Source of the DNA: Seleniivibrio woodruffii
GTDB lineage: Bacteria; Chrysiogenota; Deferribacteres; Deferribacterales; Geovibrionaceae
Assembly (NCBI RefSeq): GCF_029267515.1
Contig: NZ_JAJUIS010000001.1
Location: 434,001-498,000 of the forward strand
DNA: 64,000 nucleotides
Direction of reading: 5' to 3'
A program made the position numbers and the translations under genes. Numbering within the stretch: the stretch's first letter is position 1; each line of letters starts with the position of its first letter. Under the pieces are notes generated by a model, which had not been told where the DNA came from, did no database searches, and worked only from the letters and a program-made list of their open reading frames with translations. Positions 5,615 through 12,338 of the stretch are shown here, piece by piece.

Positions 5615-6301
5615 CTATTCGGCTGTTATTTTTTCGGCTGTTTTTTCGGAAATGAACACTCTGAGCCCTTCAGCAGTGCATATCACCATGTCGGGGTAGT
5701 CATCCAGATGTATTGATTTCCCTGTTTCTATGCCCTCAAGGGTGAGGATTGTCCCTTTCTGGATACCGTTCACCGCCATCACCTGACTGTAGGTCTCCTG
5801 ACTTAAAAGCTCGTCAACGATGAAATCTTTATTTTTCGACGCGAAGGAGAACTGTTTTCCGTCACCAAGAATGCATGCGGCATGGGCTTCGGAGAGGCGG
5901 CATCTTGTTTTGTGTCCTATGAGAGTTATGTATTCCATGTGGGGAAGTTTTTTTATCACCTGAATTGTGTCTCCGCCGTTTATGCCGAGCTTTGACATAT
6001 CTTTTGCCGCCATCTTAGGCACGACGACAATGAAGCCCGAACCTGTTTCGTGTTCGTAGATGCTGCGTTTTTCTCCGGAGGGTGATTTATAGAAAAGGTG
6101 CCGACCAAGGGATCCGCTCAGGGCTTTTGTTCCGTCTTTCGTACCGATTTTCAGCGTGGCAAGCTCAATGTCGCCACGTCCCACCTTTGAAACGATACTT
6201 CCGGCGAATATCCCGTATGCGCCCAGTTTGCGGGCAAGCTCCGGCTCTTTCACGGATATTATTTTATAGAAGCCTCCGCTTTTTGCATCGGATAATTTCA
6301 T
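5615..6301 (-). CDS. FeoA-domain repeat protein, last gene of the ferrosome-like operon
   Basis: 228 residues, soluble, with two or three SH3-like FeoA-type modules: roughly 1-75 (LARKLGAYGIFAGSIVSKVGRG), 90-150 (GDTIQVIKK) and 170-225 (GIQKGTILTLEGI). FeoA domains are small SH3-like modules that bind the ferrous iron transporter FeoB or sit at the end of DtxR-type regulators. Here no FeoB or helix-turn-helix is present. The ATG overlaps the stop of the upstream ATPase gene by ATGA, so translation is coupled. I infer a cytosolic accessory role, perhaps docking to the ATPase or sensing iron. That this family belongs to ferrosome clusters is inferred from position. Confidence 0.65.
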   Translation of the reverse strand: MKLSDAKSGGFYKIISVKEPELARKLGAYGIFAGSIVSKVGRGDIELATLKIGTKDGTKALSGSLGRHLFYKSPSGEKRSIYEHETGSGFIVVVPKMAAKDMSKLGINGGDTIQVIKKLPHMEYITLIGHKTRCRLSEAHAACILGDGKQFSFASKNKDFIVDELLSQETYSQVMAVNGIQKGTILTLEGIETGKSIHLDDYPDMVICTAEGLRVFISEKTAEKITAE

Positions 6302-8400
6302 TTCGTTCTCCCGCTCTGAGAAAGGCTCAGAGCATAAAGCAGTGTGCCGAGTGTTGTACCGTTGTGCATGACAGCGGATTGCAGCGGGCTTATGCGCCCC
6401 ATGACGGACAGCAGTACCGTTACGGTGTTTATGCCTATATTAGCGACGGACACGCGTTTGATCACCTTCATGGTTCGTTCCGCTGTGATGCGCGCTGTGA
6501 GTATTCCTCTGAGGTCGTTGCGCAGAAGTATAACGTCGGATGTTTCCCTTGCGAGGTCAGCGCCTTCCGGCATACTTATCCCCACGTGTGCTGAAAGCAG
6601 AGCCGGAGCGTCGTTCACGCCGTCCCCCACAAAAGCGATTTTCCGTCCCTCCGCTTTGAACCTGTTCACAACCTCAAGTTTGTCTTCCGGCTTCATCTCG
6701 AAATATACTTCGCTGATGCCGAGTTCCTTTGCTATGTGTTTCGCTGTGTCCCTGTGGTCGCCGGTAAGCATGACAACACGGTCTATTCCACGTTTTTTCA
6801 GGTCTTTGATAACCTGCGCTGATTCACTGCGGGGAACGTCTTTCAGTGCTATTATGCCTGCCAGCACGCCGTCACATGCCACATAGAGGATACTTTTACC
6901 TGTCTTGCGCAGTTTATCGGATATCTCGTCTGCGGCGGAGCAGTCGATATGTTCATCCTCGTGGATGAAGTGTCTGCTGCCTGCAAGAACGTGCTTTTTG
7001 CCGACGTACGCCGAAACGCCGTGAGCTATGATGAAGTCCACCTCCCCAGTCTCTTCAAGGGGGATGTTCCTTTTTTCCGCTTCTTTAACAACAGCCGACG
7101 CTATGGGGTGGCTGTAGTGCTCTTCGGCGCTGGCGGCGGTTCTGAGAATTTCCCGCTCGTCCATCTCCGAAAAGGTAATTATGTCCGAAACCTCAAGGGT
7201 ACCCTTTGTCAGCGTTCCCGTTTTATCGAATATAATGGTATCTATCTGCGCCATGTTTTCAAGTGATTGCGCGCCCTTGATGAAGATGCCTTCAGATGCG
7301 GCGCAGTACATGCTGGATTTTATGGCGGTGGGGGTTACGAGTTTCAGGGCACAGGAGTAGTCCACGGACAGCACGGATGATGCCCTGCGGAAATCCCGTG
7401 TCAGAAGCAATGTCGCAAGCCCTATGCCGAAGGTGACGGGAACCATTCTGTCGGCTATTTTGAACGCCTGAACCTCCGTATTGGAGCGGTTTTTCAGTGA
7501 GTTATTGATGAATTTTGCTATTCTGGCGGTTGTTGTTTCAGCGCCCACCTTGCGGGCTTCGATTATGAGCCTGCCTTCCGCCACGACGGTTCCTGCGTAT
7601 ACCTCGCTGTCGCATCCCGCGGTCACAGGGAGGCTTTCGCCAGTTACTGATGCCTGATTGATAAGCCCTTCGCCGCCTCTTACAATGCCGTCAACAGGTA
7701 TCATTTCGCCCGATCCGATTATGACCAGACTGCCGACCAGCACCTCGCCGATGGGTACCTTTTTTTCGGTTTGTCCTTCCAGAATCCAGACGTGCTCGGC
7801 ATCGGGCTTAATGAGGCTTTTCAGCATCCTGTCGGATTTGTACTGGGTGGAAGCCTCAAGATAGTGTCCGAGATTCAGCAGAAAGGTGATTGAGCCCGCT
7901 GTGAAATAGTCTTTGCGCACAAGCAGCATGGATACAACAGCCGCATCAAGCACTTCAACTTTAAGTCCTTCGTTCACGAGAGTGTCTATACCTTTCAGAA
8001 GCACGGGGGCTGCACCTGCGAATGTCAGAGGAGTACGGAACCACTGTGGCAGAATCAGCTTTGAAAGCCACATTGAACCTGCCCAGTAGACGTTTATCAG
8101 ATCTGGTGAGTCAACAAGCTCCTCCTCCGCCTGAAAAACGGCATGGGAGAAGGTTTGCAGTGTCGAAAGGAGCGGTTCGGTTATCTCTGTGCCCTTTTCG
8201 TGTTCAACCACAAGGGTATTTGCACGCTGATTTACGCGGACGGCAGTTACGCCGCTGATGCACTCCAGGGTCGATTCCAGAAGAGTGCAGTCAAGGGCGG
8301 GGTTGCCTAGCACCCCCGCCTTCAGCCGTATCCTCGTATCAGTTTTGTGAGCGATACTCACGCTTTCAAATCCGGTCGGATAGTGTTTTTTCTTCGTCAT
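6298..8400 (-). CDS. fezB: P1B-type metal ATPase, FezB-like (P1B-6 class)
   Basis: 700 residues. A degenerate N-terminal HMA-like domain without CxxC (about 15-85, motif TRIRLK) precedes the ATPase core. Core motifs are intact: TGES in the actuator domain, DKTGTLT (phosphorylated Asp), HYSHP, TGDHRDT and GDGVNDAP. In transmembrane helix 4 the usual CPC is YSC in a DYSCALKLVTP context, losing the proline and first cysteine but keeping the second. Such a P1B-6 ATPase, next to small hydrophobic genes, is the hallmark (FezB) of clusters that build ferrosomes, membrane-bounded iron granules. It probably pumps ferrous iron into vesicles. The start overlaps the stop of the upstream gene (ATGA) and the stop overlaps the FeoA gene. 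The ATPase class is confident; the symbol is by inference. Confidence 0.75.
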   Translation of the reverse strand: MTKKKHYPTGFESVSIAHKTDTRIRLKAGVLGNPALDCTLLESTLECISGVTAVRVNQRANTLVVEHEKGTEITEPLLSTLQTFSHAVFQAEEELVDSPDLINVYWAGSMWLSKLILPQWFRTPLTFAGAAPVLLKGIDTLVNEGLKVEVLDAAVVSMLLVRKDYFTAGSITFLLNLGHYLEASTQYKSDRMLKSLIKPDAEHVWILEGQTEKKVPIGEVLVGSLVIIGSGEMIPVDGIVRGGEGLINQASVTGESLPVTAGCDSEVYAGTVVAEGRLIIEARKVGAETTTARIAKFINNSLKNRSNTEVQAFKIADRMVPVTFGIGLATLLLTRDFRRASSVLSVDYSCALKLVTPTAIKSSMYCAASEGIFIKGAQSLENMAQIDTIIFDKTGTLTKGTLEVSDIITFSEMDEREILRTAASAEEHYSHPIASAVVKEAEKRNIPLEETGEVDFIIAHGVSAYVGKKHVLAGSRHFIHEDEHIDCSAADEISDKLRKTGKSILYVACDGVLAGIIALKDVPRSESAQVIKDLKKRGIDRVVMLTGDHRDTAKHIAKELGISEVYFEMKPEDKLEVVNRFKAEGRKIAFVGDGVNDAPALLSAHVGISMPEGADLARETSDVILLRNDLRGILTARITAERTMKVIKRVSVANIGINTVTVLLSVMGRISPLQSAVMHNGTTLGTLLYALSLSQSGRTK

Positions 8401-8594
8401 GACCTGTTTTTATATAAAAATGTGTGGTAAACCGACAAGCCCACCAGAGCCACCCCTGCGATGGAGTGGATGTTTCTTGAGGTTTTACCCTTGTTGAACC
8501 CTGAAACCACAAGAACTCCAAGCGCCGCCGTCATGGCGTATTTGGTGTATCTGCGTTTCTTCTGCATGGGGCTTAATTTTTTTTCTTCGGGCAT
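8397..8594 (-). CDS. Small two-helix membrane protein of the ferrosome-like operon
   Basis: 65 residues. A Lys/Arg-rich N-terminus (PEEKKLSPMQKKRRYTKY) leads into one hydrophobic stretch (about 20-37), a basic loop KGKTSRNIHS and a second hydrophobic stretch (about 45-60). It starts 1 base after the preceding gene ends and overlaps the next ATPase gene by ATGA. Small basic membrane proteins of this type could shape or tether vesicles. I do not recognise a named family. Confidence 0.65.
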   Translation of the reverse strand: MPEEKKLSPMQKKRRYTKYAMTAALGVLVVSGFNKGKTSRNIHSIAGVALVGLSVYHTFLYKNRS

Positions 8595-8595
8595 A

Positions 8596-8913
8596 TTATT
8601 CCCCGCCCATCTCCGCCTGAACGTCTCTTATCTGTTCTTTCAGCTCTTCAACTCCGCCCTGCAGACCGCCCCAGAGCTTAACAACGCCCTTCACTATGGC
8701 TTTTTTTACTGCGGGGTTTGTGAGAACCAGCGCAACACCTGCGCCGATTACGAAACCTTTAACGTATGACGGCTCGCGGAAGTTGAACCATTCTTTAAGA
8801 TGGCTCGCAGCTGTGTGCTGCTGGGGATAGTATGCCTGCTGTGCATACTGAGGTGCGTAGTAATGCTGCTGCTGTTGTCCCTGTGCTGCTTCGGGTGCTT
8901 TTTGCTGTTCCAT
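8596..8913 (-). CDS. Gln/Tyr-rich protein with glycine-zipper helix (DUF5132-like)
   Basis: 105 residues. Residues 1-40 are a low-complexity tail made almost only of Q, Y, A, P and H. Then FREPSYVKGFVIGAGVALVLTN opens a hydrophobic, glycine-spaced helix (about 50-66), followed by KKAIVKGVVKLWGG and an acidic coiled C-terminus. The VKGFVIGAG start is shared with the Pro-rich protein two genes upstream (FIKGLVMGAG), so the two are probably homologous in this part. This layout resembles DUF5132-type proteins that accompany heavy-metal ATPases. It is probably peripheral or integral to the iron-vesicle membrane, by inference. Confidence 0.65.
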   Translation of the reverse strand: MEQQKAPEAAQGQQQQHYYAPQYAQQAYYPQQHTAASHLKEWFNFREPSYVKGFVIGAGVALVLTNPAVKKAIVKGVVKLWGGLQGGVEELKEQIRDVQAEMGGE

Positions 8914-8915
8914 GA

Positions 8916-9242
8916 TTAGCTCTCCTTAACTGTAGCTGTATTTGTCGGTTTAACTGATGAATCCCAAAGATATTTCGCGCCTGCTGACGCCGCCGTGAAG
9001 GCTATCAGGGACATGAAGACCCCGAAACCGAACATGCTTGCCGCGGCAACGCCTGCTGCCGTTGCTATACCTGTTCCTGCCGCTTCTTTAACAACGTTTT
9101 CAGCCGCCTGTTCTTTTGTAATCTTTCCGGCTTTAAAGTCCTTCGTCTGTTTTGCGGCTGATACCGCGCCGCCTATGACTGCGCCTGCCAGAGCGCCGGA
9201 CACCGTCGCCCTGCCTATTGATGGTCCTATATGCTTGCTCAT
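8916..9242 (-). CDS. Glycine-zipper membrane protein of the ferrosome-like operon
   Basis: 108 residues. Two glycine/alanine-rich hydrophobic stretches, around 13-30 (GALAGAVIGGAVSAA) and 57-90 (GIATAAGVAAASMFGFGVFMSLIAF), are separated by a charged linker KQTKDFKAGKITKEQAAEN. Small-residue zippers of this kind pack helices tightly and can deform or line membranes. The start at 9242 follows GGAGGA by 6 bases and overlaps the stop of the preceding gene (ATGA). A longer upstream frame exists but runs inside the preceding gene and has no ribosome site. The family is unknown to me. Confidence 0.65.
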   Translation of the reverse strand: MSKHIGPSIGRATVSGALAGAVIGGAVSAAKQTKDFKAGKITKEQAAENVVKEAAGTGIATAAGVAAASMFGFGVFMSLIAFTAASAGAKYLWDSSVKPTNTATVKES

Positions 9243-9751
9243 ATCTGTTCCTCCGAGTCCTCTGTGAACATGCTTACCGTTTTTCCCAGAATGTCGCTGA
9301 GTGCCGAACGCACCGATTCGCTGCTTAAAAGCATCGCAAGTCCCGCACCCATCACAAGCCCTTTGATGAAGTCGCTTCCTGTGGCGTTCACCATGCGGCT
9401 CACCTCCAAAAGCTGCGGGTTGCCCTCGATCATCTGTCCGAACATTCCCATAATTCCGCTCATAGGATCTTCCTGCTGATGGTGTCCGCAATGCTCGCCC
9501 TGCTGTGGGGGAGGCGGTGCGGGTTGAAATCCGTATTGCGGCGGATAGGGCGGCATATACGGCGGATAAGGCGGATATGGTGCGTAACCCTGCATGGGCG
9601 GGTAGCTTGGGGGCGGATACATGTATGGGTTATACATATATGGGTTGCCCATAAAAGGCTGCTGCATCTGCGGTTCGCCCATGTATGGGTTCTGCATCTG
9701 TTCTTCCGCTTCCTGCTGTCCGGAAGTTTCGTTTGTTTCTTTCTCTTCCAC
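9239..9751 (-). CDS. Pro/Tyr/Met-rich protein with hydrophobic C-terminal helix
   Basis: 170 residues. About 20-90 is a low-complexity tract of NPYMY, YPPP and PYPPY repeats, rich in Pro, Tyr and Met, closed by a HCGHHQQED cluster that could bind metal. The second half holds an amphipathic MSGIMGMFGQMIEG stretch, then FIKGLVMGAGLAMLLSSESV, a glycine-spaced hydrophobic helix, and an acidic tail. GTG start with AGGAGG 5 bases upstream. Position 2-3 in the operon and sharing its helix motif with the Gln/Tyr-rich protein suggest a vesicle coat or scaffold role, by inference. A disordered tyrosine-rich tail in a metal organelle cluster is striking. Confidence 0.65.
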   Translation of the reverse strand: MEEKETNETSGQQEAEEQMQNPYMGEPQMQQPFMGNPYMYNPYMYPPPSYPPMQGYAPYPPYPPYMPPYPPQYGFQPAPPPPQQGEHCGHHQQEDPMSGIMGMFGQMIEGNPQLLEVSRMVNATGSDFIKGLVMGAGLAMLLSSESVRSALSDILGKTVSMFTEDSEEQI

Positions 9752-9763
9752 AAAACCCTCCTT

Positions 9764-10060
9764 TTATTTTATGAATTCTTTATATTTTTTAAGCACTTCG
9801 AGGCTTTCGCCGTCGGAAGCCCCCAGCAGAGTTGCCATGTCCGCAGGATGTATCACCGCTGGGTCATAACGCAGCACCACCGAACGGGCAAGCATGTTCA
9901 CCCGCTTGTCCAGCACGCCGGGTATGGACGCGCTTATCTCCTCCAGCCGTTTACTCACAGGGTCTTTCATGATGGCAGGGTCTACCTTGAGCCTGATTCG
10001 ACCTTCGACGTGGTGCACGACTGAAACATATTTTTTTACTGCCAGAAGTTCTTCTATCAT
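9764..10060 (-). CDS. Stand-alone HMA_2-type domain protein
   Basis: 98 residues. VSVVHHVEGRIRLKVDP, then ISASIPGVLDKRVNMLARSVVLRYDPAVI, matches the HMA_2 type of ferredoxin-like fold: the CxxC metal loop is replaced by an H-x-x-x-GRIRLK motif, and the PGV/VNxxxxSxVxxYD pattern is kept. The same motif appears at the N-termini of both ATPases in the operon, so this looks like a detached copy of that domain, perhaps acting in trans as an adaptor. Its ATG overlaps the stop of the preceding ATPase gene (ATGA). Confidence 0.75.
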   Translation of the reverse strand: MIEELLAVKKYVSVVHHVEGRIRLKVDPAIMKDPVSKRLEEISASIPGVLDKRVNMLARSVVLRYDPAVIHPADMATLLGASDGESLEVLKKYKEFIK

Positions 10061-12201
10061 TCCTTTTCTCCGTCGTAGTTCATAAGTCTGGAAGAGTTCA
10101 CCATTATGCCGCCTGTGTGGGCTATGTGCAGAAGACCTGCCATAACGGGGTTCAGTATGCCCAGTGCGCCCAGCACGGCTCCGGCGATGTTGGTTGATGT
10201 TGCTAGGGTGAAGTTCTGATGAACTATGGTTTTTGTCTTTTTGCTGAGCTGACGCAGGAAGACTATCTTGTTCAGGTCGTCGTCCACCAGCGCTATGTCC
10301 GCCGCTTCCACTGCGACGTCGGAACCCGCCGCGCCCATTGCTATGCCGAGATCAGCCTGTGCAAGAGCCAGAACGTCGTTAATTCCGTCGCCTATCATTG
10401 TGACCTTGTGCTCTTTCTGAATCTGACGGATGATGTCCGCTTTGTCCTGAGGCAGAACGGAGTAGTGACATTCGTCGAAACCGAGGCGCTGTGCCAGCGG
10501 TTCCGCGGACTGCCGCTCGTCGCCCGTTACCATAATTAGGTTTTTAACGCCGTCTCTGCGCAGAAACTCTATTGTTTCGGCAACGCCCTCTTTGTCCTTT
10601 GTGCGGATGGAGATGATGCCGAGGAGTCTGCTGTCCTCTGCGACGTAGAGAACGCTTTTGCCCTCTTCCGCCCATTTTTCAGCACGGCGTTTAACTGTGC
10701 CGGTTTTTATGCTGAACCGATCCATGAGCTTTCTGTTGCCCACGCAAACGGTGCCTTCCGCTGTGTCCGCCGCAACCCCCATGCCTAGGATGGTTTCGCA
10801 CACGGCATGGTCCGGTTTTTCCAGACAGAGCTGTTCCGCTTTTTTGCGTATCGCCGCTGCCATGGGGTGTCTGTTGTGCAGTTCCGCCGCGTATGCACGC
10901 ATGAGCAGATCCTGTTCGGATGAGCCTTTAAGCGGATAGATGTCTATGACTTCCGGCATGTCTGTGGTGATTGTGCCGGTTTTGTCGAAACAGAACGATT
11001 CCTGTTCGCCGGCGTCTTCAAGGTAGCGTCCGCCCTTTATGAGCACCCCTTTGGATGCCGCATTGCCGATGGATGCACTCACTGCGGAGGATGCCGCCAG
11101 AGCAGTTGCACAGGGACACGTCATAACGAGCATGACGGAGAGTGTTCTGTACAGACTGCGGGTGAGCACAAAGGTGCCCGCCGTCATTATGAATCCGATG
11201 CCCACGAGTTTCTTTGCCAGCTTGTCCGCTTCAAGCTCAATGGGTGCTTTGTTTTCCAGTGATGTTTCCACCGCCTGCAATATGCGCGCAAGGTATGTGC
11301 TGTCGCCGACCCTGTCCGCGCGGATATAGATCAGTCCGTCCTGAACGTAGGTTCCGGCGTAGACCGATTCGGATTTGACTTTATGAATAAGTTCCTGCCG
11401 CCCGTTTATGGGAGCTTCGTTAACCATGGCTTCGCCGCGAATTATCTCACCGTCAACTGATATTTTTTCACCCGTGCGTACGATGACGGTTGCGCCCTGT
11501 TCAACCTTTTCAACGGGAACCTCTATCTCGCGTCCGTTTACCAGTATAAAGGCGGTTTTCGCGGTTATGTCGAGGATGTTTTTTATGGATGCGCGTGATT
11601 TCTCTGTGATGTGCTCCTGCATAAGCTCTGCGCCGCTGTTCACCCAGAGTATCTCAAGGGCGGTCATGGTTTCCCCTGTGAGAAGCGCCGCGCCGACACC
11701 TGCACCGAGAAATGCGTCCAGACCGATCTTTTTGTCTTTAAGTGATTTTGAAACCGCAGCATATACAAGAGGAGCGGCAAAAAACGCCGTAAGAAACCAC
11801 ATAGGGCTGAAAACTGCCTGAGAAATGACCTTACCGAACAGACGTTTCGAAATGAACGACGCGCCTGTCATTGCTGTGAGCGCCGCAAACTCGGTCTTTT
11901 TGTTTAGAAGAGCAAGACCGTCCTTCGCATCGGAACATGCACAGCCCGCTTTTGCCGCTTCTGCCGGAACCAGCTTAACGGGTTTTATAACGGAAACAGC
12001 ATTTACTATATCCGAAACGGAGAGAACACCGCCGTCATATGCAACGATGAGACTTGCGCATTTTCTGTTGCACCGAACGGACGCTATGCCATTTTTCGAT
12101 GAAAGGACGCTGATTATGGACGAACAGAGGTTCTGTTCTGTTTTGAGAATCGGATATTTAAGCCTTACCCTGTTTGGGGAGGAATGAGCAATCTTTAACA
12201 C
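10057..12201 (-). CDS. P1B-type ATPase with altered actuator motif, first gene of the ferrosome-like operon
   Basis: 714 residues. A degenerate HMA-like N-terminus (NRVRLK motif, about 5-85) precedes a full P1B core with CPC in helix 4 (TCPCATAL), DKTGTIT, RHPMAAAI, VTGDERQS and GDGIND. The actuator motif, normally TGES, reads NGRQ (in NEAPINGRQELIHK), so the Glu needed to dephosphorylate the enzyme is replaced by Arg. The protein may phosphorylate but turn over poorly, or act as a structural or regulatory partner of the second ATPase. Start is GTG with a weak ribosome site. A Fur-box-like sequence lies about 120 bases upstream. The gene heads eight tightly packed genes, most overlapping by 4 bases or separated by 1-12. 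Confidence 0.75.
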   Translation of the reverse strand: MLKIAHSSPNRVRLKYPILKTEQNLCSSIISVLSSKNGIASVRCNRKCASLIVAYDGGVLSVSDIVNAVSVIKPVKLVPAEAAKAGCACSDAKDGLALLNKKTEFAALTAMTGASFISKRLFGKVISQAVFSPMWFLTAFFAAPLVYAAVSKSLKDKKIGLDAFLGAGVGAALLTGETMTALEILWVNSGAELMQEHITEKSRASIKNILDITAKTAFILVNGREIEVPVEKVEQGATVIVRTGEKISVDGEIIRGEAMVNEAPINGRQELIHKVKSESVYAGTYVQDGLIYIRADRVGDSTYLARILQAVETSLENKAPIELEADKLAKKLVGIGFIMTAGTFVLTRSLYRTLSVMLVMTCPCATALAASSAVSASIGNAASKGVLIKGGRYLEDAGEQESFCFDKTGTITTDMPEVIDIYPLKGSSEQDLLMRAYAAELHNRHPMAAAIRKKAEQLCLEKPDHAVCETILGMGVAADTAEGTVCVGNRKLMDRFSIKTGTVKRRAEKWAEEGKSVLYVAEDSRLLGIISIRTKDKEGVAETIEFLRRDGVKNLIMVTGDERQSAEPLAQRLGFDECHYSVLPQDKADIIRQIQKEHKVTMIGDGINDVLALAQADLGIAMGAAGSDVAVEAADIALVDDDLNKIVFLRQLSKKTKTIVHQNFTLATSTNIAGAVLGALGILNPVMAGLLHIAHTGGIMVNSSRLMNYDGEKE

Positions 12202-12267: not shown

Positions 12268-12319
12268 TATCCAATGTTAAGCACCGCGAACACTAAAAGT
12301 CAACTTTATTTTATAGTAT

Positions 12320-12338
12320 GAAAATGAGTATCAGTAAT
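12320..12338. promoter_or_regulatory. Fur-box-like site upstream of the ferrosome-like operon
   Basis: GAAAATGAGTATCAGTAAT matches the Fur consensus at about 13 of 19 positions. On the minus strand it is followed within 4-9 bases by a TATAAA that could serve as -10. The transcript would have a leader of about 100 bases before the GTG at 12201. Confidence 0.5.

Follow-up and report, generated by a model that had tools for sequence, protein, structure and literature searches.

FezB is the P1B-6-type ATPase of ferrosomes in D. magneticus and C. difficile, and in P-type ATPases the glutamate of the TGE motif drives hydrolysis of the aspartyl phosphate. P1B-6 ATPases are listed as Fe(II) ATPases in a review (PMC7558416), and the FezC protein of Desulfurispirillum indicum was shown experimentally to be a DUF4405-related cytochrome that carries heme b (PMC11334425). 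The phosphatase motif is described as carrying the Glu in all pumps (PMC10654040), and in KdpB the E161Q substitution abolishes ATPase turnover and leaves a stable phosphoenzyme (PMC7535926). KdpB also makes natural use of the TGES loop to halt its cycle after phosphoenzyme formation, the Glu being kept and inhibition being exerted through Ser162 phosphorylation (PMC7535926). TMEM94 is a P-type-like protein reported to be without TGES, and its structures display neither nucleotide binding nor phosphorylation (PMC12134183). In M. tuberculosis the PacL proteins gather several P-ATPases in one platform (PMC13043812), and the effluxosomes of CtpC, CtpG and CtpV combine metal ATPases with small transmembrane partners (PMC13043812, PMC9374683).

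The window analyzed here, a stretch of 64,000 nucleotides from Seleniivibrio woodruffii, carries a P1B-type ATPase gene (ATPase A; 10057..12201, minus strand, as are all features given below) whose product has an N-terminal HMA_2 domain, E1-E2_ATPase and Hydrolase domains, and no actuator TGE Glu. The ORF is real, encodes 714 aa from a GTG start and has a counterpart at 93% protein identity in a Seleniivibrio MAG; its product scores 472 bits against TIGR01525, the curated model of P1B heavy-metal ATPases (cut-off 346). An earlier note on this DNA had read N-G-R-Q where P-type ATPases carry TGES, and alignment with the ATPases of the same genome and with relatives set N266-G-R268-Q269 (residues 266-269; 11395..11406) exactly on TGES, with R268 (codon CGG, 11398-11400) at the position of the catalytic Glu. 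Every other ATPase found in the same genome has TGE at that position, and the Glu is held by all aligned ATPases outside the ATPase A orthologue group. Two TGE strings that do occur in the protein, TGEKISVDG (residues 243-245) and TGET (near 175), were rejected as a misplaced motif, lying as they do outside the catalytic loop. The note's other motif readings were borne out by an intact phosphorylation site D406-K-T-G-T (10972..10986, calculated from the residue number), intact TGD and GDGxND motifs, and an intact membrane metal site C362-P-C364 (11110..11118); the HP motif is intact as well. It had passed over two changes: Ser371 (11089-11091), seven residues past CPC, stands where CPC(x)6P has its proline, and the protein reads GDGINDVL where GDGxNDAP is expected, with L611 (10369..10371) replacing the proline. 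ATPase A thus has the CPC, DKTGT, HP and GDGxND motifs and the TIGR01525 assignment of CopA/ZntA-type P1B ATPases, but differs from them by the lost catalytic Glu and by the loss of both prolines. Most of the ferrosome-associated members also have a possible metal site, a CxC or CxxC motif that lies past the HMA_2 domain and ahead of the first transmembrane helix (residues 87-89 in ATPase A, about 11935-11943).

The replacement of the catalytic Glu is kept across genera and phyla, as emerged from the alignment of homologues that the earlier note had proposed. All eight orthologues in the family (three genera, 57-98% identity) read NGR[QS]EL, and the orthologue in G285, a genome from another phylum, reads NGRAER at 43% identity. 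The search was widened by running a profile from nine orthologues on 326 genomes in the Desulfovibrio-containing phylum of G072, a genome that we take to be a Desulfovibrio relative from the likeness of its DsrA to the Desulfovibrio sequence, the phylum label following from that assumption. This recovered 14 further members at 524-790 bits (best ordinary ATPase, 456), of which 11 read TGR, NGR or SGR and one each NGV, TGQ and TGC, with Glu in none. ATPase A was not found in three small phyla that were searched for it, and no plasmid-borne clade member was seen, the plasmid matches listed being 30-36% identical. A census covered 19 non-redundant members, drawn from three phylum-level groups, and the catalytic Glu was lost in 19/19 (Arg in 16; Val, Gln and Cys in one each), in comparison with its presence in 43/43 other P-type ATPases (26 FezB-like sequences or YSC-type relatives, 17 others). 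Because the Glu is missing from every member, the Glu-less state is more than chance. The occurrence of Val, Gln and Cys in three members rules out an Arg clamp on the phosphate as a common mechanism; the property held in common is the loss of the Glu.

The residues for ATP binding and phosphorylation are invariant, also across members whose identity to the window protein is no more than about 36-45%. The Asp, Lys and Thr of DKTGT (D406, K407, T408), the ATP-site residues E440, H445, G473, G475 and G489, the GDGxND motif and the CPC motif are each present in 19/19 members, and the TGD position holds Asp in 18 and Glu in one. The clade therefore carries the DKTGT and TGD/GDGxND hinge signatures of the P-type superfamily and lacks the TGE catalytic Glu. 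It also departs from the P1B (x)6P pattern, motif strings showing Ser, Gly, Ala or Gln in place of the CPC(x)6P proline throughout, and the GDGxNDAP proline is lost in 18 of 19 members (Leu in 16, Phe in two, Pro in one). The Glu-less sequences form a monophyletic group (UFBoot 95, stem 0.50) apart from the FezB-like clade. Comparison of the ATPase A gene with its congeners gave dN/dS values of 0.03-0.08, with similar values for the second ATPase of the operon; ATPase A is under strong purifying selection.

An eight-gene operon begins with ATPase A and ends in a FeoA-domain gene. The stop codon of ATPase A is overlapped by the start of a gene for a small syntenic HMA_2-like protein of 98 aa (9764..10060; HMA_2 27.9 bits, just below the 30-bit cut-off), followed by genes for a Pro/Tyr/Met-rich protein with one C-terminal transmembrane helix (9239..9751) and a two-transmembrane protein (8916..9245). 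We call the latter MamC-like tentatively, from a resemblance seen by eye; a PDB search with it returned the MamC constructs 5e7u and 6eqz among the top matches at E 0.7-1.1, which is not significant. A FezA-like single-transmembrane protein (8596..8913) adjoins the FezC- and FezB-like genes, the former encoding a two-His, DUF4405-like protein (8397..8594; DUF4405 E 0.061, below cut-off) and the latter ATPase B (6298..8400). The last gene encodes a protein with an N-terminal FeoA domain (5615..6301; FeoA 38.3 bits, cut-off 23). Intact TGES, a YSC(x)6P motif of the form [YF][SG]C(x)6P, taken here to be the P1B-6 motif, and a place in the FezB-like clade mark ATPase B as P1B-6-like and FezB-like. 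ATPase B thus resembles the FezB of ferrosomes in its P1B type, its YSC(x)6P and its adjoining FezA- and FezC-like genes, whereas ATPase A, with CPC instead of YSC, a separate clade and no TGE Glu, does not. Profiles derived from the window recovered the FezA-, FezB- and FezC-like genes of Chrysiogenete-like genomes in the same phylum, the FezC-like profile matching the FezC-position genes of their operons at 1e-20 to 1e-23. Since the FezC-like protein has this sub-threshold likeness to DUF4405 and Chrysiogenete-like genomes hold Fez-like gene sets, we named the operon ferrosome-like; from its gene set it looks like a ferrosome (fez) operon. A Fur-box-like site, TGATACTCATTTTCA (12319..12333; 12/14), lies 117 nt upstream of the ATPase A start and is consistent with iron regulation of the operon. 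Within the genus such a site scores 11-13/14 in each of the five genomes and is convincing; outside the genus it is weak and does not convince.

We read 16 operons with both ATPases, of which the family supplied nine (the window included), G285 one and the G072 phylum six. Gene set and order were nearly identical across the 16, the exception being G285, where we detected no small HMA_2 gene. The second ATPase of the operon, for which the earlier note had proposed the first as a possible sensor, chaperone or scaffold, is intact in all of them. In the family, the nine of 12 genomes with ATPase A are also the nine with FezB; among the 326 genomes ATPase A occurs in 14, FezB in 26 and both in eight (Fisher p 1.2e-6), and the co-occurrence by genus has p of about 2e-6 (2.1e-6), in a test where relatedness is not fully corrected. 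The fez-like operons that we read in other lineages contained neither ATPase A nor any second ATPase, which makes ATPase A accessory and not essential to ferrosomes as such. One fez-like operon (L123:3138-9929) has a CPC-type ATPase with TGEALP (5639-7969) at the FezB position, adjoining the Glu-less ATPase. In the Campylobacter-like and Chrysiogenete-like fez-like operons L084, L085 and L088, a protein of ~200 aa with a ferritin-like look, a weak DUF2202 match and a C-terminal transmembrane anchor is encoded between the HMA_2 gene and FezA, at the slot taken in ATPase A-containing operons by the Pro-rich transmembrane protein. Four ATPase A genes (L127-L130) do not adjoin a FezB gene. At L127, L129 and L130 the Glu-less ATPase lies near a ~1000 aa HMA_2-containing ATPase with intact TGE and near small transmembrane proteins, and at L129 and L130 also near an S-adenosylmethionine synthetase-like gene; these surroundings are possibly another organelle or platform cluster.

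An AlphaFold2 model of ATPase A was built from a 45-row alignment without plasmid sequences, an earlier 9-sequence alignment having given a pLDDT of 52. The new model (pLDDT 85.9) has the full P1B fold, the same as in CopA/ZntA-type ATPases, with all four domains (A, P, N and M), and matched CopA (7r0g) at Z 31.0 and HMA4 in the E1 state (8q74) at Z 28.4, with an rmsd of 4.1 over 606 residues. HMA4 E1 was the nearest structure by rmsd, the P1B E2P structures lying at 7.8-9.1, and the NGRQ block had a mean pLDDT of only 61. The E1-like conformation of the model and its low confidence at NGRQ lend no support to a lock in E2P, and trapping is not addressed by the model.

We consider that ATPase A, with a probability of about 0.5, acts on or with FezB as a phospho-switch or partner gated by metal and ATP, and not as an ordinary pump. 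We infer this function from the residues kept and lost, their conservation and selection, the operon context and the co-occurrence with FezB. What is kept amounts to a putative kinase half, comprising ATP binding, autophosphorylation of D406, the CPC metal site and the N-terminal HMA_2 domain, and what is lost would be the phosphatase half, the TGE Glu having given way to Arg or to Val, Gln or Cys. An invariant kinase half together with a phosphatase residue that is always gone fits a phosphorylatable switch or stalled partner; neither a normal pump nor a dead scaffold would readily account for it. Metal and ATP would push ATPase A into a long-lived phosphorylated state, from which a slow return would depend on ADP (reversal of E1P) or on some other factor; the phosphorylated protein might then serve as a switch or scaffold for FezB or for organelle assembly, without multi-turnover pumping. 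A trapped phosphoenzyme is plausible. In KdpB, too, the cycle is halted through the TGES loop once the phosphoenzyme has formed, with the difference that KdpB keeps its Glu, which the ATPase A sequence has lost. ATPase A also shares the absence of TGES with TMEM94, in contrast to which the nucleotide-binding and phosphorylation motifs of its clade are invariant. CtpC, CtpG and CtpV are metal exporters, and TGE is present in the CtpC-like homologues that we read, in contrast to ATPase A. A literature search on pseudo-pumps among P-type ATPases found nothing relevant. The earlier note's proposal of a phosphorylated sensor, chaperone or scaffold of the second ATPase in place of a pump held in part: the Glu loss is conserved together with the kinase half and an intact second ATPase lies in the same operon, while phosphorylation, trapping, metal sensing and contact between the two are putative. 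A more specific version, in which the clade evolved into a kinase-only P-type family whose phospho-switch acts through FezB to gate the loading of a bacterial organelle with iron, appears clearly unlikely as it stands. Without a phosphatase step the aspartyl phosphate would be discharged mainly by ADP, and its level would accordingly report the ATP/ADP ratio along with metal occupancy.

That ATPase A is a true pump, only a slow or unconventional one, which moves metal across the ferrosome membrane and is dephosphorylated without the TGE Glu, for example by spontaneous hydrolysis or with the help of another acid such as E270, is possible though rather unlikely. The CPC motif and the whole N- and P-domain machinery are invariant, as a pump would require, and a Glu lies two residues past the motif in 15 of 19 members. 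That Glu is missing in the other four (Gln in two, Val and Met in one each), so that E270 was rejected as a universal compensating acid; moreover, KdpB mutants of the TGE Glu are dead for turnover (PMC7535926), and the CPC(x)6P and GDGxNDAP prolines are gone as well. We regard as improbable a purely structural pseudo-pump that scaffolds FezB or delivers metal to it, with phosphorylation irrelevant. The constant presence of an intact second ATPase in fez operons with ATPase A, as well as the HMA_2 domain and CxC/CxxC motif in most members, would agree with such a role, but invariant phosphorylation and ATP residues in so divergent a clade are hard to explain if catalysis is unused. Still more doubtful is a passive or reversed gate for iron release, opened by a phosphorylation that is unable to turn over: ferrosomes need iron release, and the membrane metal site is kept while the transmembrane proline after CPC is lost, but fez operons exist without ATPase A. 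Local mutation, a pseudogene or a sequencing error, suggested only by the view of a single genome, has a negligible chance of being correct and is refuted by the 19-member clade, given that no same-operon homologue has TGES, that all orthologues and independent assemblies share the same state, and that the dN/dS values are so low.

A Glu-less clade that spans three phylum-level groups under strong selection and keeps the phosphorylation half of the cycle would offer a natural test case for roles of P-type ATPases beyond pumping. The position of ATPase A at the head of a ferrosome-like operon, together with an intact FezB-like pump encoded in the same operon, would provide an experimental way into the regulation of iron organelles.
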